A DNA stretch of 49,587 nt from Acidobacteriota bacterium. Lineage in GTDB: Bacteria; Acidobacteriota; Terriglobia; Terriglobales; Acidobacteriaceae. Below are positions 1 through 35,773 of the stretch, in pieces. Both the position numbers and the translations under genes were made by a program. Position 1 is the stretch's first letter; every line of letters begins with the position of its first letter. The stretch covers positions 1 through 49,587 of the forward strand of contig JAJZHE010000004.1 of assembly GCA_021804655.1 (NCBI GenBank), written 5' to 3'. The notes under the pieces are model-generated. The model saw only the letters and a program-made list of their open reading frames with translations, was not told the DNA's origin and made no database searches.

Positions 1-714
1 TTGCTCAACAGATGGAATAACATGTCCATACTTTTTCTTGATTGACATTCTAACACTATTAATAACATAATCCCCATGCTTGTTGATATAACTAATCCAA
101 TGCCATAGACCTCTTTTAGTGTCCAGGCCATGATACATTCTCATGTCGAGATGAAAGCATACTCGCAAGCGCATTTCTTGATCGCCACGAGGGCCGTTGA
201 ATAAATGCCCGTGGTCTATAAAAAATACAGATAGTTTTTGGCTATTGGATAACTTAACAAATACAACTTGCCTACTGTCAACATGGTCACACCAGACATC
301 AGCAACAAGTGAAGCTAAAAACATTGATCTGTTTTCAATCCGATTTATCCAACAAGTCGGGACAGCATCGAAAACATCTTGAGATTTATTACCCAACCAT
401 AAAGAAGCAAAATGATAGCCAGCTTTCGGCTTTATGTTCGAGTTGCTCATATCTTCCCAAAAATTCTGATTTTTATCAATAAACTCTTGAGCAACATATA
501 TTATTGTAAAGTGTGGTGTAGGTATTCCTAGTTTTATATATATTAGCGATCCGACTATTTCATTCATTACTAGATTAGGTCCCTGTGGATTCTGAACCCA
601 TTTAATAACATATAGCAGTCCATCTGAGGCCTCGACGAGCGTGCTTCCTGATCCGCCATGCATCCGCTTGATCGCACGTGTAGGCGTGATGATGTTGATT
701 TTGCGTGTAGACAT
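1..714 (-). CDS. HipA-like kinase family protein, partial (C-terminus beyond left window edge)
   Basis: Manual translation of the minus strand gives an uninterrupted 238-codon frame from ATG at 714 to base 1: MSTRKINIITPTRAIKRMHGGSGSTLVEASDGLLYVIKWVQNPQGPNLVMNEIVGSLIYIKLGIPTPHF...; resembles the HipA-like kinase N-terminal pattern. Absent from the ORF track because it has no stop inside the window. Confidence 0.75.
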   Translation of the reverse strand, partial: MSTRKINIITPTRAIKRMHGGSGSTLVEASDGLLYVIKWVQNPQGPNLVMNEIVGSLIYIKLGIPTPHFTIIYVAQEFIDKNQNFWEDMSNSNIKPKAGYHFASLWLGNKSQDVFDAVPTCWINRIENRSMFLASLVADVWCDHVDSRQVVFVKLSNSQKLSVFFIDHGHLFNGPRGDQEMRLRVCFHLDMRMYHGLDTKRGLWHWISYINKHGDYVINSVRMSIKKKYGHVIPSVEQ

Positions 715-916
715 GATCGCCCCGAAACGAATATGTCCAACGCAGGCTGGGAAATTGCACTGCAATCAGTAGAAGATTACATGTAGCTATTTTTGGCTTT
801 GAATTCTGCAAGTAGACTACTCTGTTAAATTGCTTTTTATTTTTTCACGATGAATTATTTTCGATCAGAACCAAAATTGACATTTCCTGATAGCTTGAAA
901 CTGGACGGTCATCGGG

Positions 917-25722: not shown

Positions 25723-26229
25723 TCAAGCGCGACGTCTGCTGGAAGCTTTGGGCGCAGCGGCTGCATCGGGGGATGCGCCCGAGTCGTCTGCGGATGTGTC
25801 GGCAGTGCGGCGCTTGCGCCCGAACCAGTCGTCAAGCATCTGCTGAGCGCGGCGGTCCGTCTCCTGACGCACGCGCAGCTCAGCCTCGGTGAGCAACGTC
25901 TCCACCTGGCGGCGAGCGGTACGGCGGGCCTGATACTCCTCGCGTTGGACGGCAAGCTGCTCGTCAAGCTGCTGGAGCTGGGGACGCAGAAACTCGGCTT
26001 GACGCGTGGCCACCTGCATGCGGATCAGGCCAGTCTGGCGGTCACGAGGGTCATCGTGTTCGACGCCGTGGACCAGGTCCGCACGGCCATCGAGACACTC
26101 CTGGTGAGCGGCCAGCAACTCGGCGGCAGCCTGTTCGCGGCTGCGTGCGGCTGCCTCCAGCACCAAGCGGCTTTGGTCCTCTTCGAGTTCACGAATGCGG
26201 GTGAGGCGACGGAGGGTTTTGACGGACAT
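25723..26229 (-). CDS. fliJ: flagellar export protein FliJ
   Basis: Coiled-coil protein RRLTRIRELEEDQSRLVLEAAARSREQAAAELLAAHQ directly downstream of fliI; start placed at MSVKTLRR. Confidence 0.75.
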   Translation of the reverse strand: MSVKTLRRLTRIRELEEDQSRLVLEAAARSREQAAAELLAAHQECLDGRADLVHGVEHDDPRDRQTGLIRMQVATRQAEFLRPQLQQLDEQLAVQREEYQARRTARRQVETLLTEAELRVRQETDRRAQQMLDDWFGRKRRTADTSADDSGASPDAAAAPKASSRRRA

Positions 26230-26366: not shown

Positions 26367-27686
26367 TCAGATCGACTCGGCCAAAGCCAGAAGACGATCC
26401 ACACAGCCCTGAAAGTCAAGCCGCTCGGCGGCGCCCTGCATGAAAAACTCGCGCAGCAGAGGGCGCGCTTCGAGCGCGCGGTCGAGGTCTTCATCGGAAC
26501 CAGGGCGATACGCCCCGATGCGGACCAGATCCTCGGAGCGCGCATAGGCCGCCAGCAGGCGGCGCAGCTCGGCAGCGGCTTCGCGATGCTCCGGCGAGGC
26601 GACAGCGGTCATCAGCCGACTGACGGAATCGAGAATCTGAATGGGCGGATACCAGCCCTCCGAGGCCAGCGCGCGGGAGAGCACGACATGGCCGTCCAGC
26701 AGCGAGCGAACCGCATCGACGAGAGGATCCTGCTGATCGTCGCCCTCCATCAGCACCGTGTAGAAAGCCGTGATGGAGCCGTTGCGGAAGCTGCCGGCGC
26801 GCTCGACCAGGCGCGCCAGGCGCGTGAAGACCGAAGGGGTGTAGCCTTTGGCCGTCGCTGGCTCACCGGCTGCAAGACCGATCTCGCGGGCAGCCATGGC
26901 GAAACGCGTGAGTGAATCGAGCACCAGCAGAACATGATGGCCCTCGGCGGCAAAGGACTCGGCAATCGCCGTGGCTCCCAGCGCGGCGCGCATGCGCATC
27001 AACGGGCTTTGGTCGGAGGTGGAAACCATGACAACCGAGCGGCGGCGACCCTCCTCGCCCAGCGCATCCTCCAGAAACTCACCCACCTCGCGGCCACGTT
27101 CGCCGACCAGCCCGACGACGGTGATATCCGCCTCAGTGTTGCGCGTCATCATGCCGATCAGGGTGCTTTTGCCGACACCGGAGCCGCCGAAGATGCCCAC
27201 ACGCTGCCCGCGACCAACCGTGAGTAGACCGTCGATGGCGCGGATTCCAGTGCCCAGCGGACGGCGGATGGGAAGCCGGTCCAGTGGCGTACAGACCGGA
27301 CCGTCGAGCGGAACCGAATGCGCGGTGCGCGGTGCGCGTCCGCCGTCAATGGGATGGCCCAGCGCGTCCAGCACACGGCCCATCAGCGCCGGGCCGGTCT
27401 CGACCTCCGGCGTCACCCCCAGCGCCTCGACCGCATCGCCATACTGGATGCCCTCCGGCGCATTGACCGGCATGGAGAGCACCGTCTGGCCGCGAAAGCC
27501 GATGACCTCGGCCAGGTGACGGCCGCCCTGCCGGTCCACGATGGCGCACAACTGGCCGACCGAGCAGATGGGGCCGGCTGATTCGATGGTCTGGCCGATG
27601 GCCTGCAACACCTGGCCGCGCCACCGCCAGGGCTGGATGCGCCGCAGGCGATGCTGATAGCCGCTGAGCTGCCCGGGAGGGGTCAT
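26367..27686 (-). CDS. fliI: flagellum-specific ATP synthase FliI
   Basis: RVGIFGGSGVGKSTLIGMMTRNTEADITVVGLVGERGREVGEFLED, LVLDSLTRFAMAAREIGLAAGEPATAKGYTPSVF. Confidence 0.97.
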   Translation of the reverse strand: MTPPGQLSGYQHRLRRIQPWRWRGQVLQAIGQTIESAGPICSVGQLCAIVDRQGGRHLAEVIGFRGQTVLSMPVNAPEGIQYGDAVEALGVTPEVETGPALMGRVLDALGHPIDGGRAPRTAHSVPLDGPVCTPLDRLPIRRPLGTGIRAIDGLLTVGRGQRVGIFGGSGVGKSTLIGMMTRNTEADITVVGLVGERGREVGEFLEDALGEEGRRRSVVMVSTSDQSPLMRMRAALGATAIAESFAAEGHHVLLVLDSLTRFAMAAREIGLAAGEPATAKGYTPSVFTRLARLVERAGSFRNGSITAFYTVLMEGDDQQDPLVDAVRSLLDGHVVLSRALASEGWYPPIQILDSVSRLMTAVASPEHREAAAELRRLLAAYARSEDLVRIGAYRPGSDEDLDRALEARPLLREFFMQGAAERLDFQGCVDRLLALAESI

Positions 27687-28792
27687 CGCGGTGCTCCAGT
27701 GGCTTCGGCAGCCGGAAGTGGGTCATGCGGCGCAGACTGAACTGGCACAGACGGCGCTGGCATCGGCTGAAAATCCACGGAGGCTGGAGTTTGTGTTGCT
27801 GGCCGACGTGGAAGGCGATCAAAAAAGCCACGCTCGATCTCACGCAACTGCTCGTGCAGGCTGAGATCGGCTCCGCCAAATCCGTTTTCACCCAGACCGG
27901 TTTCGATACGGCACTCGCCCAGTTCCATACGCGCATCGCCAACAACCTCCGGGCGCTGACGCAGGCCTGGAGTCAGACGAAGCGACTCTTCCCAAAGTGC
28001 ACGGTCGGCCTCTGGAACGATGATCTGGACCTTCGCCGACTCTCCAAGCTGGTTCAGCGCGACACGCACCGCTCCAGAAAGCAGCAGCGGATCCATCTGC
28101 GCCTCACGGCGCAGGATGCGCGCGGCAATGGCCAGTGCCAGACGCACGGCTTCCTGCTCCAGCTCATGGAGGCAATGCTCGCGTTCCGCGGCAAAGTCGT
28201 CAAGTACAGCCAGAACCTGCTGTCGCGCACCCTCGATCGCCGATTGCTGAGCCTCTCGATCGGCAGCCTGCGCCTGCGACCTGCCTTCTTCCCTGCCTTC
28301 TTCCCTGCCCTGCTGCAAACCAGCCAGCCAACCGTCCTGCCAGCGATGACTGACGACTTCTTCGGCCTCGCCTTCCGGTTTCTGATCTTCGATGCCGTCC
28401 GGCTGCGGCATCAGAGATCGTGAGGCCGCCGCTTGTGTTGTTTCGGTCTGATTTGTCTGCGGAGACATGACCGACAAAAATCCGGGGAAGACCGTGGCTA
28501 AATGTTGACTGGTGGCGGACTCTTCATCGGCGATGGAGATGGGGGCGACGGGAAAGGCGGAAGCGGCGTTGGAATCCTTCGCCGGGACGGTGGGATAGAC
28601 AAGTGCGGAGAAGTCGCTGCCGTCGCTCGATTCCGAGGAGAGAGCGTCCAGAGACGCACCTGCATCGAACGAACCAGCATCCGACGGACCAGCATGATCG
28701 GCTTTGCGGTCGCCCGTTCGGGCACGAGTCGGATGGCGCTTTGCGTTGTGAGAAGAACTTCGAAACGAACTGCGAAGACCAGACATGCGCAT
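27683..28792 (-). CDS. fliH: flagellar assembly protein FliH
   Basis: GLQQGREEGREEGRSQAQ glycine-repeat, C-terminal VRVALNQLGESAKVQIIVPEADRALWEESL; overlaps fliI by 4 bp. Confidence 0.85.
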   Translation of the reverse strand: MRMSGLRSSFRSSSHNAKRHPTRARTGDRKADHAGPSDAGSFDAGASLDALSSESSDGSDFSALVYPTVPAKDSNAASAFPVAPISIADEESATSQHLATVFPGFLSVMSPQTNQTETTQAAASRSLMPQPDGIEDQKPEGEAEEVVSHRWQDGWLAGLQQGREEGREEGRSQAQAADREAQQSAIEGARQQVLAVLDDFAAEREHCLHELEQEAVRLALAIAARILRREAQMDPLLLSGAVRVALNQLGESAKVQIIVPEADRALWEESLRLTPGLRQRPEVVGDARMELGECRIETGLGENGFGGADLSLHEQLREIERGFFDRLPRRPATQTPASVDFQPMPAPSVPVQSAPHDPLPAAEATGAPR

Positions 28793-28799
28793 CTCTCCC

Positions 28800-29849
28800 T
28801 CAGACCATCATCTCGTCGCCGGATTCCATCTTCAGGATGACCTTGCCTTCTGCCTCCAGGCGGCGGGCAAGGTTCAAAATCTCCTGCTGCGCGGCGGCAA
28901 CCTCGCGCGAACGCACCGGACCGAGCACCTCCATATCTTCCTTGAGCATCTCGACGGCGCGTGAACTCATCGCTTTGAACATCTGCGCGCGCAGCTCCTC
29001 GTTAGCGCCGCGCAACGCCAGTGCAAGCTGCTTTTTGTCCACGCCGGAGACGATCTCGCGAATACTGGTGGGCGGCACGGTGACCAGATCCTCAAACGTG
29101 AACATCAGGTTGCGGATGCCCAGCGCAAGCTCCGGATTGCTTTCTTCAAGCACCTCCAGAATGCGCTTGGCCTCCTCGGCATTCTGGCGGTTGAGAAGGT
29201 CGGCCACCGCCTTGAAGCCGGAGTAACTCTTCCGCTTGTTGTCGCCGACATTCTCCAGGCGACGATGAAGAATCTGCGCAACCTTCTGCGCCATCTCGGG
29301 CGAGAACTGCCGCATCTCCGCCAGACGGCGCACCGAGACTACCTTGCGCTCTTCACTCAGATTGTCCAGCACCATCGAGGCGCGACGCGGGTCAAGATGA
29401 GCCAGCACCAGCGCAATCGTCTGCGGATGTTCAGCCTCCAGCAACTTGCCCAGTTGCAGCGGATCTGTCTTCTGCAGCTTGGCCAGATTGCCCTGGCTCT
29501 CCTCCTGCGCACGTCGCACCAGTTCCATCAGATCCTCGGCGCGCTGCTTGCCAAATGCGTCCTGCAGCAGACGCGAGGCGTAATCAAGACCGCCGTGCAT
29601 CATCACCTGCTGGGTCTCCAGCATCTCCCAGAACTCCCGAACAATCTCGGCAGAAAGCTCGGGCGGAATGGCACGCAGATCGGCCAGCTCTTCCGTAATG
29701 CGCTGCACGTCGGACTCCGGCAGTGTGCGCAGAATCTCACGAGCCAGGTCCTCGCCAAGCGCAACCATGAGAATTGCCGCTTTGCGCGCTCCGCTGATCG
29801 ACGCCGCCATTCTGCGTTGTGCCGTATTCTCTGTCGCCTGCTCCGCCAC
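28800..29849 (-). CDS. fliG: flagellar motor switch protein FliG
   Basis: GARKAAILMVALGEDLAREILRTLPESDVQRI, EHPQTIALVLAHLDPRRASMVLDNL, MFTFEDLVTVPPTSIREIVSGVDKKQLALALRG. Confidence 0.97.
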   Translation of the reverse strand: MAEQATENTAQRRMAASISGARKAAILMVALGEDLAREILRTLPESDVQRITEELADLRAIPPELSAEIVREFWEMLETQQVMMHGGLDYASRLLQDAFGKQRAEDLMELVRRAQEESQGNLAKLQKTDPLQLGKLLEAEHPQTIALVLAHLDPRRASMVLDNLSEERKVVSVRRLAEMRQFSPEMAQKVAQILHRRLENVGDNKRKSYSGFKAVADLLNRQNAEEAKRILEVLEESNPELALGIRNLMFTFEDLVTVPPTSIREIVSGVDKKQLALALRGANEELRAQMFKAMSSRAVEMLKEDMEVLGPVRSREVAAAQQEILNLARRLEAEGKVILKMESGDEMMV

Positions 29850-29965: not shown

Positions 29966-31645
29966 TCATTCGGAGTGAATCCAGCTTTGCAACAGCCGCG
30001 AACTTTGAGCCGGATTCTGCTTGAGTTGCTCGGCAACCTGATCGAAGACCTTCTGTGAACGCAACCGCTCCAGATCCGCTTCGGTCGGGACTCCGGGCGA
30101 CAGCACTGGATCCGCGACTCCGGCCAGCGCTGCCTGCTGCGCGGTGGTTTTTTCTGTTGTCTTTGGCTTCTGAAGCGCAGGACGAATCCCGAGCAGGATC
30201 AGCAAGGCCAGACCCACCAGCAGCGTGCCGTACTTGAGCAGCAATGGCGACTGCTCGGCGAGGCGCAGCATGCGCTCCGGCGTGGAGATCGCTGGTACGC
30301 TCTGATTATCCTCAAAGGGCAGGTTCTCGACCGTAACCAGATCGCCGCGCGTTCCGTCGAAACCCACAGCAGCCTGTGCCAAAGCGGTCAGGTTCTGCAT
30401 CTCGGCGGCATTGAGATGCTGCCAGACGGCAGGCGATTTGCCGCTGGCTGGATGCACCAGGCGGTCGTTGACAAGAATCGCCGCCGTCACCCGGCGCAGA
30501 TGGCCAGGCTGCTCCAGCGTGTGCAAGACCTTGTGCGAAGCCGCATAGGTGCCGCTCTCCGTCTTCGCCGTCTGCGGCGGTGTCTCTTGCGGAGGATAGA
30601 CAGGCTTGGCCTGGGAGTTGGGAGCATTCGAGGCCGTTCCGGGAACCCCGGCCGCTACCGGCTGCGAACCGGCACTCTGCTCGGTGCGCTGCATGGAGAG
30701 CGCAACGGTCTGGTTGGGATCGTAGGTGTCGTCGGTCTCTTCAGTCGTCTTCGGGTTGTAATCGACGGTCACCGAGGCGCGCACGTTGCCGGCGCCGACG
30801 ACCGGCTCCAGAGTGTCCATCAGCTTGGCCTCCAGCGCCTCTTCGGTGCCCAGACGCATCTGCTCGCCAGTCTTCGGACCCAACGGCAGATGACCGCTGG
30901 CATCGACCAGCACCACCTGAGCGGGCGCGAGACCATCGACGGCCGAGGCGACAAGATTGCGGATCGAGTCGTCCTCGCCGTCGGCCAGATGACCGTGGCG
31001 CAGCGTGAGAACGACCGAAGCCTTGGCCGGACGGTCCTGGTCGCGGAAGAGCGAATCGTGAGGCAGAACCAGATGGACGCGTGCCGCCTGAACGTCGCTG
31101 AGCGTGGCAATGGTGTGCTCCAGCTCACCCTCCAGTGCACGCTGATAGTTGACCCGCTCGTCGAACTCAGAGCCGACCCAGTTGGGCTTGTCGAAAAGCT
31201 CAAAGCCCATGCGCCCGCTGTGCGGTCCGCCTTTGGAGGCTGTGGCCAGACGAGCCTTGTCGAGATCCGCCGCAGGCACACGGATGGTGGATCCGGTGGC
31301 GGCAAGATCGAAGGGAATCTGCGCCTGAGTGAGCACCTGCGCCATGCTGCGCGCATCGTCCGGGTCCATGCCGGCGTAGAGCACGCGCCAGTCGGTGCGC
31401 GTGGCGAACCAGCCCATCAAAATCAGCACGGCGACCGCCAGCGTAGTCCCGATGAGCAGACGTGTGCGCTGATGCGGCGGCAATTGATCCCAGCGCGCGG
31501 AGGCCTGACTCCAGCCAAATTGAGCACGTGCCAGTACGCTGCCATCAGCGGCAGATTCGCCGGTAGGCGCGGCCCCGGAACCGCCTGGAAGAGGTATGGC
31601 TCCTGCGGCACCTGGACTGCGATCGATCTGTGTTCCTGCGGCCAT
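29966..31645 (-). CDS. fliF: flagellar M-ring protein FliF
   Basis: DWRVLYAGMDPDDARSMAQVLTQAQIPFDLAATGSTIRVPAADLDKARL; RALEGELEHTIATLSDVQAARVHLVLP. Confidence 0.96.
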   Translation of the reverse strand: MAAGTQIDRSPGAAGAIPLPGGSGAAPTGESAADGSVLARAQFGWSQASARWDQLPPHQRTRLLIGTTLAVAVLILMGWFATRTDWRVLYAGMDPDDARSMAQVLTQAQIPFDLAATGSTIRVPAADLDKARLATASKGGPHSGRMGFELFDKPNWVGSEFDERVNYQRALEGELEHTIATLSDVQAARVHLVLPHDSLFRDQDRPAKASVVLTLRHGHLADGEDDSIRNLVASAVDGLAPAQVVLVDASGHLPLGPKTGEQMRLGTEEALEAKLMDTLEPVVGAGNVRASVTVDYNPKTTEETDDTYDPNQTVALSMQRTEQSAGSQPVAAGVPGTASNAPNSQAKPVYPPQETPPQTAKTESGTYAASHKVLHTLEQPGHLRRVTAAILVNDRLVHPASGKSPAVWQHLNAAEMQNLTALAQAAVGFDGTRGDLVTVENLPFEDNQSVPAISTPERMLRLAEQSPLLLKYGTLLVGLALLILLGIRPALQKPKTTEKTTAQQAALAGVADPVLSPGVPTEADLERLRSQKVFDQVAEQLKQNPAQSSRLLQSWIHSE

Positions 31646-31737: not shown

Positions 31738-32217
31738 TCAGAACTGCATGCTCATCACCTGCTGATAGGCCGAGAGCGCTTTGTCGCGCACGGCGACCGC
31801 CATATCAAAGCCCATCTCGGCTTTTTCCGTGGCGATCATCGCCTCATGCACATCGACGCCTTTGCCGGAGAGCAGGCCCTCGATCGAAGTCTGTGCGGCG
31901 CGCTCCAACTGGTTGACCTGCGTAACGGACTGGACGAGAAGATCAGAGAACGGAGCAGACGTGGAAGCAATGCCCGACATCGCGATCTCTGACGACACGC
32001 CGGTTGCCGGGGAAATTGCGCCCGCTGACGCCGTAGCGCTGCTGGCAGCCGAGGCCAATGCGTCGCCGAACGTAGTTCCGAATGAGGCTCCATACGAAGT
32101 GACAGATTGCGACGCGCCGGAGGTGAGCGCGCCGCCAAAGGGGCTGAGCGGAGTTGTGCTGCTGAAGACGTCTTGCGCCGACTGCGCGGCGGGGATGAGG
32201 GGAAGCATCGGATTCAA
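31738..32217 (-). CDS. fliE: flagellar hook-basal body complex protein FliE (N-terminally extended)
   Basis: C-terminal LTQVNQLERAAQTSIEGLLSGKGVDVHEAMIATEKAEMGFDMAVAVRDKALSAYQQVMSMQF; position between flgC and fliF. Confidence 0.88.
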   Translation of the reverse strand: MNPMLPLIPAAQSAQDVFSSTTPLSPFGGALTSGASQSVTSYGASFGTTFGDALASAASSATASAGAISPATGVSSEIAMSGIASTSAPFSDLLVQSVTQVNQLERAAQTSIEGLLSGKGVDVHEAMIATEKAEMGFDMAVAVRDKALSAYQQVMSMQF

Positions 32218-32293: not shown

Positions 32294-32803
32294 TTACTTG
32301 GCCAGCTCGAGCGAAGAGCTGATCATGGATTTCTCCGCCTGCACGGCCGAGACATTGAGACCGTAGGAGCGGGTCGCGCCCATCAGGTCCACCATCTCCG
32401 TAAGCGGGTTGATATCCGGGTAGGAGACGTAGCCCTGCGCGTCCGCATCAGGATGGCCGGGATCGTAGCGCTTGAGCGCCGGAGCGGTGTCCTGGACGAC
32501 GGCCGCGACCTGAACACCGGGCGCAACGAGCGAGGCTCCAGGCAACGGCAGAATCACCGTCGGCGAAGCGGCCGAGGCCTGAAGCGCGGACAACTGCGTT
32601 GCCGGATCGAGCTGCGTATTGAGCGCGCCGGCGAAGCTCTGCTGCGAGCGGGCGGCGAAGACGACATGCTGGCGATGATAGGGCGTGCCGTCGGCGGTGC
32701 GCGTGGTCTCGGCGTTGGCCATGTTGGCGGCCACCACTTCGGCGCGCATGCGCTCGGCCTGCAACGCGGAACCGGAGGTGTCCATCATTCCAAAAAGATT
32801 CAT
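32294..32803 (-). CDS. flgC: flagellar basal-body rod protein FlgC
   Basis: SGSALQAERMRAEVVAANMANAETTRTADGTPYHRQHVVF, YVSYPDINPLTEMVDLMGATRSYGLNVSAVQ. Confidence 0.93.
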   Translation of the reverse strand: MNLFGMMDTSGSALQAERMRAEVVAANMANAETTRTADGTPYHRQHVVFAARSQQSFAGALNTQLDPATQLSALQASAASPTVILPLPGASLVAPGVQVAAVVQDTAPALKRYDPGHPDADAQGYVSYPDINPLTEMVDLMGATRSYGLNVSAVQAEKSMISSSLELAK

Positions 32804-32850
32804 CGCATTCTCCTCGGTATTCCAAAAAGATTCATTGGATTCTCCTCGAC
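32787..32850. repeat. 32-bp tandem duplication spanning the flgC start/RBS region
   Basis: attccaaaaagattcatcgcattctcctcggt (32787..32818) followed by attccaaaaagattcattggattctcctcgac (32819..32850); 28 of 32 positions identical by eye. Confidence 0.92.
32800..32835 (-). CDS. 11-codon upstream mini-ORF (MNLFGIPRRMR) overlapping flgC start
   Basis: Minus strand ATGAATCTTTTTGGAATACCGAGGAGAATGCGATGA; TGA at 32802..32800 overlaps the flgC ATG at 32803..32801. Produced by the tandem duplication; translation is unproven. Confidence 0.4.
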   Translation of the reverse strand: MNLFGIPRRMR

Positions 32851-33290: not shown

Positions 33291-33315
33291 GGGAACTCTC
33301 CTTGCGTGTGAATCG

Positions 33316-33331
33316 TGCAATTTTGCGGCCA
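33316..33331 (-). promoter_or_regulatory. putative sigma54 (-24/-12) promoter for the flg-fli operon
   Basis: Minus strand TGGCCGCAAAATTGCA, matching TGGC-N7-TTGCW with the canonical GG/GC spacing, about 26 bp upstream of the flgB start codon. Confidence 0.65.
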
Positions 33332-33398: not shown

Positions 33399-34757
33399 TC
33401 AAAGCCGTGTTGCCACAGAATCAGCGTCCGCTTCATCCCCGAACTCAATCTCCGTGGAGCGTATCCAGGGAGAATCGGCGGCAAGAATCGCAGCTCGCTC
33501 CAGCACATGCTCCAGTTCGCGGACATTGCCCGGCCAGGAGTGGGTCATCAGGCGCTCCATCGCCTCCGGATCGAGCCGCTTGACCGGCATGCGCTCACCC
33601 AGCCGCTCCAGCACATGTTCAACCAGCAAAGGCAGGTCCTGCCGGTGCGCGGCCAGCGCGGGCGTGCGAATGAGAAAGACCGCCAGGCGATGATAGAGAT
33701 CTGCGCGAAAGCGCCCGGCGCGCGCGTCCGAGGCCAGATGCTGATGGGTCGCGGCGAGAATGCGCACATCGACGCGAACGGTCGAGTTTTCCCCGACGCG
33801 CTGCAACTCGCCGCACTCCAGGAAGCGCAGCAGTTTGGCCTGGAGAGCCAGCGGCATCTCACCAATCTCGTCGAGAAAGAGTGTTCCTCCATCGGCGGAC
33901 TCAATCCGTCCCGTGCGACCCTGTACGGCTCCGGTGAAAGCTCCTCGGGTGTGACCGAAGAGTTCGGCCTCCAGCAGCGCCTCTGGAATGGCAGCGCAGT
34001 TGATGGCGACAAAAGGTCGGGATGCGCGATCGGAGAGCCGATGCAAGGACTCGGCAACGCGCTCCTTGCCGGTGCCGGTGGGGCCTTCAATCAGCACCGA
34101 TGTACGATGACCGGCAACCAGGCGCACGCGTCGGCTGACCTCAAGCATCACCGGAGCGCGACCGATGAGGCCAGGCAACGGCTCAACCTCAGTCGAAGCG
34201 CCTGCGCTCCGCAGCGAGATGCTTTCACAGGAAGTCTCCGGTCCGGGACGGAACCGGGCCGAGTCAACCAACGACGAAACAGCGTCGGGCAGAGATGCCC
34301 GTGTCGTCTCTGGATCGCCGTCGAGTACAGGCGCGGCATTCCAGGCGGCGGTGTCCGACGGCGCACTGCGGCGCAGGGCAAAGAGCAACTCCTGATGATA
34401 GCTGCATCGCGGCGCACCCTTCACCTGCGCTCCATCCGTGAGCAGCATGTCGGCACGAGGATGCTGGCGGCGAAACTCTTCCAGAAATTCGTTCAGTTCG
34501 AGATCCGGCAGCCAGGAGTCCACGAGAACCGCTTCGATCGTCGTCTCGGCGGACTGAGTCCAGGCCGCAGCCCCACAATCGGCCTCCAGCACTCGCCAGC
34601 GCAGTTCGGCAAGTGCGACGGCGAGCTGACGCCGCTGGCCAAGATCGGGCGTGACGATCAGTACGGTGCGTGTGCGCAGGCTGCGCGGAAGCGCCACGCT
34701 GGGAATGGGCTGCGAAGACGGTCGAGAGGGCGAAGAGGGAAAGGGCTGGGACGACAT
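33399..34757 (-). CDS. sigma54-dependent transcriptional activator (AAA+ enhancer-binding protein) without C-terminal HTH
   Basis: [104 protein letters not shown]-stop; the ORF track extends to a TTG at 34847. Confidence 0.9.
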
Positions 34758-35032: not shown

Positions 35033-35773
35033 TCAGCCCAGCGGCGGCAGCGCCGGTATGGCTGCAATCGCTGCTGCATGCCCAGGCACCGGAAGCCGCA
35101 ATTCGGTCTCCGATGGAACCAGATAGCCACGCCCCCGCACCGTACGCACCAGGAAGCCGGGCGGCGGATCCTTGAGCTTGCGACGCAGGTAGTTGATGTA
35201 CACATCGACGATGTTCGTAGTCTGAGCCGGCTCCATATTCCAGACCGCATCCAGAAGCTCGACGCGGGAGATGCACTCGCCACGGCGCAGCATGAGGTAC
35301 TCAAGTAACGCGAACTCTTTGTTGGTGAGCGCAATGGGCGCGCCGGCACGTCGCGCGGTGTGTTCCATGCGATCCAGTTCCAGGTCGGCGACGCGCAGCA
35401 TCAGGCGGGCCTCGCGTTTGCGACGCAGCAGAGCGCGGCAGCGTGCGCGCAGCTCATGCAGGCTGAACGGCTTGACCATGAAGTCATCGGCTCCGAGATC
35501 AAGGCAGCGGATGCGCGTCTCCACCTCCTGGCGTGCGGTCAGCACAAGCACGGGCAGATCGGCATCGACGGCGCGCATCTCGGCAAGGGCCTGTTCGCCG
35601 TCCTTGCGCGGCAGGTTCAGATCAAGGATGGTCAGGTCGGGCGCGTCCTGCTGATAGGCAAGGACGGCTTCGACGCCGTCGGCGGCGCAGCGGACACGGT
35701 GGCCATCGGCTTCCAGACCGCGGGTGAGGAACTGCGCCAGCGCGCGGTCATCCTCGGCAACAAGCAATTTCAT
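35033..35773 (-). CDS. OmpR/PhoB-family response regulator
   Basis: MKLLVAEDDRALAQFLTRGLEADGH, DLTILDLNLPRKDGEQAL, winged helix ending NIVDVYINYLRRKLKDPPPGFLVRTVRGRGYLV. Confidence 0.93.
   Translation of the reverse strand: MKLLVAEDDRALAQFLTRGLEADGHRVRCAADGVEAVLAYQQDAPDLTILDLNLPRKDGEQALAEMRAVDADLPVLVLTARQEVETRIRCLDLGADDFMVKPFSLHELRARCRALLRRKREARLMLRVADLELDRMEHTARRAGAPIALTNKEFALLEYLMLRRGECISRVELLDAVWNMEPAQTTNIVDVYINYLRRKLKDPPPGFLVRTVRGRGYLVPSETELRLPVPGHAAAIAAIPALPPLG

Follow-up and report, generated by a model that had tools for sequence, protein, structure and literature searches.

Which promoter drives the flagellar operon that begins with flgB is the question raised by a 49,587-nt stretch (hereafter the window) of an Acidobacteriaceae genome (contig JAJZHE010000004.1 of assembly GCA_021804655.1). 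In the collection of papers searched, none dealt with flagellar transcription or flagellar promoters in Acidobacteriota. An earlier reading of the letters alone (the sequence-only reading) had placed a strong sigma-54 promoter directly upstream of flgB, behind the gene of an activator without a helix-turn-helix (HTH), and had predicted sigma-54 control of flgB through fliJ. Our analysis indicates that flgB is very probably served by a working RpoN promoter at positions 33331-33316, which most likely also drives flgC-fliE-fliF-fliG-fliH-fliI-fliJ. This promoter is specific to one clade, which is a new point of this analysis.

A conserved core of a probable sigma-54 promoter upstream of flgB

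Re-reading the sequence bore out the core TGGCCGCAAAATTGCA, which on the minus strand reads TGGC-CGCAAAA-TTGCA, has the exact GG-N10-GC spacing and fits TGGC-N7-TTGCW. It is situated 41 nt 5' of the flgB ATG (33290), within the 108 nt that do separate the stop codon of the activator gene from this ATG. The description of the match as strong holds for the core, where TGGC and TTGCW are perfect, but not beyond it, since the inner ACG of TGGCACG is unmatched. The core pattern is common. The other exact −24/−12 match in the window (421-406) lies within an open frame (1-765, minus strand) that runs off the window end and looks by eye like a HipA-like kinase; because of this location, it is probably a chance match.

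For the comparison, activator orthologues were taken from 40 related genomes and FlgB orthologues from the GTDB-species collection. The relatives compared are metagenome-assembled genomes of Acidobacteria/Acidobacteriaceae, and the core claim rests on eight close genomes. Among their eight orthologous flgB upstream regions (window included), the site is the best-conserved 16-mer, with an identity of 0.89 compared with 0.54 ± 0.08 on average per 16-mer in the diverged flanks and 0.74 for the next best non-overlapping block. After removal of near-duplicates, the identity of the site was 0.875 versus 0.55 elsewhere. TGG, TTGCA and their spacing are invariant across the eight genomes while the middle of the site varies, which is the pattern expected of selection on a sigma-54 core. 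The distance from site to ATG is 40-41 nt in seven of the eight genomes and 50 nt in one, in intergenic regions that range from 107 to 217 nt. Furthermore, TGG-N8-TTGCR was found upstream of flgB in 10/10 close genomes tested, with a chance of 0.0045-0.02 per genome in a shuffled 150-nt upstream region; these ten genomes are related, so the per-genome values cannot be multiplied.

Of the site-bearing genomes, 12 were placed in a tree built from the activator, and every one of them belongs to a single 13-member clade with 100/100 support. Genomes with weaker or shifted matches (L069, L070, L009 and L016) were counted here as site-bearing, and L066, also site-bearing, was not placed. Across this clade, the gap between the activator gene and flgB measures 100-217 nt.

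RpoN and other predicted flagellar promoters

The rpoN gene is present and intact in the genome, encoding 541 aa with the N-terminal region and the RpoN box (profile match of 190 bits, no stops). FliA is encoded as well. Flagellar genes were scanned for other −24/−12 sites, as the sequence-only reading had proposed, using a matrix written from the known consensus and untrained, whose scores only rank the sites. Two genes, flgF and flgD, were kept, as their matches lie between genes and recur in relatives. On contig C202 of the same genome, which holds the second flagellar cluster, flgF carries TGGTTCTCCTGCTGCA 41 nt before its ATG. The wider TTTGG-N9-TGCW precedes flgF in 18/23 genomes, drawn from two families; shuffles of the same sequences gave an expectation of 0.02. 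In the same genome flgD carries TGGAACGTTGTTCGCA, and relatives have similar sites. The many other matrix sites in the second cluster were dropped, being mostly inside coding sequence (e.g., within fliR before flhB). A sigma-54 site was also looked for upstream of the activator gene, where none was both convincing and conserved.

The flagellin gene fliC (contig C46, L120) is instead preceded by a FliA promoter, TAAA-N15-GCCGATAG (TAAA-N15-GCCGATAR), conserved in five genomes. Therefore, the sigma-54 motif does not simply stand before every flagellar gene. Combined, these sites suggest a layered scheme, with sigma-54 for rod and hook genes and FliA for flagellin. With 150-170 nt between the FliA promoter and fliC, the transcript would have a long 5' leader that is kept between species.

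In the other family, no site is found at flgB, yet the flgF site is mostly kept. The most parsimonious view is that sigma-54 has long controlled flgF and that its control of flgB was gained once, in the clade of the window. The flgB operon would thus have been added in this clade to an older sigma-54 flagellar regulon, represented by flgF across the order, in which FliA may serve fliC.

The HTH-less activator

The protein encoded just upstream of flgB carries Walker A and GAFTGA motifs in an AAA+ domain; essentially all orthologues share the two motifs, and GAFTGA is kept in all 46 that cover the region. After WPGNVREL, the protein ends within a few dozen residues, in an E-I-[DE]-F-G tail that is conserved in Acidobacteriaceae. 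An HTH is absent from essentially all activator orthologues, in agreement with the HTH-less protein of the sequence-only reading. In relatives, the receiver domain matches Pfam Response_reg weakly (E 4e-5 to 6e-4, below cut-off); the acidic pair is altered, as judged by eye, and phosphorylation of the activator therefore cannot be assumed.

Enhancer-binding proteins without HTH form a recognised class Ic, which includes CtcC, FlgR and FleT, the latter also lacking a signal domain (PMC3162934). The activator fits this class in having AAA+ without HTH, while constituting a distinct sequence family with its E-I-[DE]-F-G tail. FlgR of Helicobacter pylori, which has no DNA-binding domain, works as an activator from solution (PMC3930126). 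Given these precedents, the local activator may need no enhancer to open the flgB promoter.

In the proposed mechanism, sigma-54 RNA polymerase would bind the −24/−12 site as a closed complex, which an AAA+ activator, hydrolysing ATP, would open with its GAFTGA loop. The best candidate for this role is the adjacent HTH-less protein, which may act from solution, as FlgR does in Helicobacter. At sigma-54 promoters, transcription starts about 12 nt downstream of the −12 element. A start near 33305 would give a 15-nt leader, GCAAGGAGAGTTCCC, which contains AAGGAG. We infer the start site, the pairing of activator and promoter and the length of the operon from the sequence.

Evidence for and against sigma-54 control of flgB

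The conserved site, the intact rpoN, the flgF and flgD sites and the HTH-less activator with GAFTGA together support the predicted sigma-54 control of flgB. The sequence-only reading had named two checks that computation can address, the presence of rpoN and a search for further −24/−12 sites at flagellar genes, and both favour it. Some points weigh against sigma-54 control. The core alone occurs at chance frequency, with two matches in the window versus 1.44 expected from shuffles (86 matches genome-wide in 2.86 Mb). Pattern statistics by themselves were not significant within the window and were dropped as evidence, so the significance of the flgB site derives from its position and conservation, not from its count. 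Within the clade, no flgB site can be recognised in one genome (L014/G004). In about 30 relatives at a greater distance, activator and flgB stand in the same order, usually with a gap of 19-85 nt, but no sigma-54 site is found at flgB; sigma-54 control of flgB is therefore not general. Finally, transcription that continues from the activator gene into flgB could contribute as well.

This last point can be extended to the proposal that flgB is mainly transcribed from a promoter upstream of the genes for the OmpR-type regulator and the activator, the sigma-54 site adding little. These two genes and flgB are co-oriented and syntenic in 47/50 loci, and read-through must serve flgB in most of the distant relatives, given their short gap and lack of a site. 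In the clade of the window, however, the gap is longer and the sigma-54 site forms the only strongly conserved block, which needs explaining, which makes this proposal rather unlikely here.

A similarly low probability is given to a genuine sigma-54 promoter that depends on a different NtrC-type protein for activation, while the HTH-less neighbour acts elsewhere or is inactive. The genome has six places that match the activator query, and the degenerate receiver of the adjacent protein leaves its input unclear. Nevertheless, the closest neighbouring gene encodes an activator with intact GAFTGA that has been kept beside flgB in dozens of genomes.

An activator without HTH should need no enhancer, yet conserved elements lie upstream of the −24 boxes of both flgB and flgF, a further new point. 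At flgB, this is the conserved block TTCTTAGAA; at flgF, it is TCTAAT, which 12/13 same-genus genomes keep 17-23 nt above the −24 box with fixed spacing (CTCTAAT in the flgF regions L128-L139). The OmpR-type regulator is a candidate binding partner of the upstream element. It is a speculative and quite improbable idea that another DNA-binding protein, perhaps this regulator, binds TTCTTAGAA and CTCTAAT and holds the activator there, so that enhancer binding and AAA+ activation would be split between two proteins. A direct-repeat reading of the TTCTTAGAA block with an 11-bp period in OmpR style was considered by eye and is not claimed.

Control of the flgB operon by FliA (sigma-28) or a housekeeping promoter in the same gap is very improbable. 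The presence of fliA in the genome is compatible with it, and one clade member (L011/G009) carries TAAAGTTCCTTTTCGTACGGCCGATAT 99 nt upstream of flgB, with 11/12 matches to the FliA consensus; in the window, however, no sequence near flgB matches that consensus better than the background level of 7/12, and a search around the gap between activator and flgB gave no sigma-70-like site. In L011/G009, TAAAGTTCCTTTTCGTACGGCCGATAT stands directly before the sigma-54-like TGGCCGTTCAATTGCA, a possible dual promoter. That the flgB match arose by chance, or is conserved as the binding site of another protein, is hardly credible: the pattern count in the window does equal chance, but orthologues keep the GG-N10-GC spacing fixed, flgF and flgD show this architecture again, and rpoN is present.

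Comparison with known flagellar systems

The predicted regulon, in which sigma-54 serves flgB, flgF and flgD, FliA serves fliC and the HTH-less activator is conserved throughout the family, suggests that a little-studied phylum wires its flagellum genes much like better-known bacteria. The FlgR/RpoN regulon of H. pylori (PMC3930126) likewise ties an HTH-less sigma-54 activator to flagellar genes and uses FliA for a flagellin. In contrast to FlgR, the acidobacterial activator has a degenerate receiver, an OmpR-type regulator gene lies directly upstream, and the gene order is activator-flgB. No counterpart of the FlgS kinase was identified, a kinase not having been searched for. Vibrio FlrBC and Pseudomonas FleSR (PMC7064773) resemble the present system in having sigma-54 promoters before flgB and, in Vibrio, separately before flgF, although the acidobacterial activator differs in lacking an HTH.

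Another difference concerns the position of fliF and fliG. Their products are part of a checkpoint that switches on sigma-54 activators in Campylobacter, Vibrio and Pseudomonas (PMC7064773). In Vibrio and Pseudomonas, the two genes belong to an earlier class, with the checkpoint activating rod and hook genes (PMC7064773), whereas here both lie downstream of the sigma-54 flgB promoter. The checkpoint genes would then depend on the activator that they should trigger. This placement of fliF and fliG is a new point and would amount to a rewiring, if the operon is one transcription unit.

Organisation of the predicted flgB operon

The features of the locus are listed in Table 1. The gaps at flgB/flgC, flgC/fliE, fliE/fliF and fliF/fliG measure 76-136 nt; neither a sigma-70-like site nor a convincing minus-strand terminator was found in these four gaps.

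Table 1. Positions of the flgB promoter elements, the regulatory genes and the operon genes in the window.
Feature	Position	Strand	Basis or remark
OmpR-type response regulator gene	35033..35773	minus	Pfam; directly upstream of activator in 47/50 loci
HTH-less NtrC-type sigma-54 activator	33399..34757	minus	Degenerate receiver, AAA+ with GAFTGA, lid, short tail replacing HTH
Conserved block TTCTTAGAA	33356..33364	minus	About 25-33 nt upstream of flgB −24 box; second most conserved, 0.74 identity
Sigma-54 promoter core TGGCCGCAAAATTGCA	33316..33331	minus	−24 TGGC 33331-33328; −12 TTGCA 33320-33316
Predicted transcription start	33305	minus	12 nt from −12 C; predicted by spacing rule
flgB Shine-Dalgarno AAGGAG	33298..33303	minus	Sequence
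flgB, first operon gene, 116 aa	32940..33290	minus	Pfam Flg_bb_rod; orthologues
flgC	32294..32803	minus	Pfam Flg_bb_rod and Flg_bbr_C
fliE	31738..32217	minus	Assigned by eye from a FliE-like C-terminal sequence; uncertain start
fliF (MS ring)	29966..31645	minus	Pfam YscJ_FliF
fliG (rotor)	28800..29849	minus	Pfam FliG
fliH	27683..28792	minus	Weak NCBIfam FliH matches, below cut-off
fliI (export ATPase)	26367..27686	minus	NCBIfam FliI/YscN family
fliJ	25723..26229	minus	By position; no profile match

At the flgC start (32795-32845, minus strand), the ribosome binding site and first codons are tandemly duplicated, with two copies of GAGGAGAAT...ATGAATCTTTTTGGAAT. The first of these opens a frame of 11 codons, and the stop of this frame overlaps the start of flgC. 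The one relative checked, L066, has a single copy at this position.
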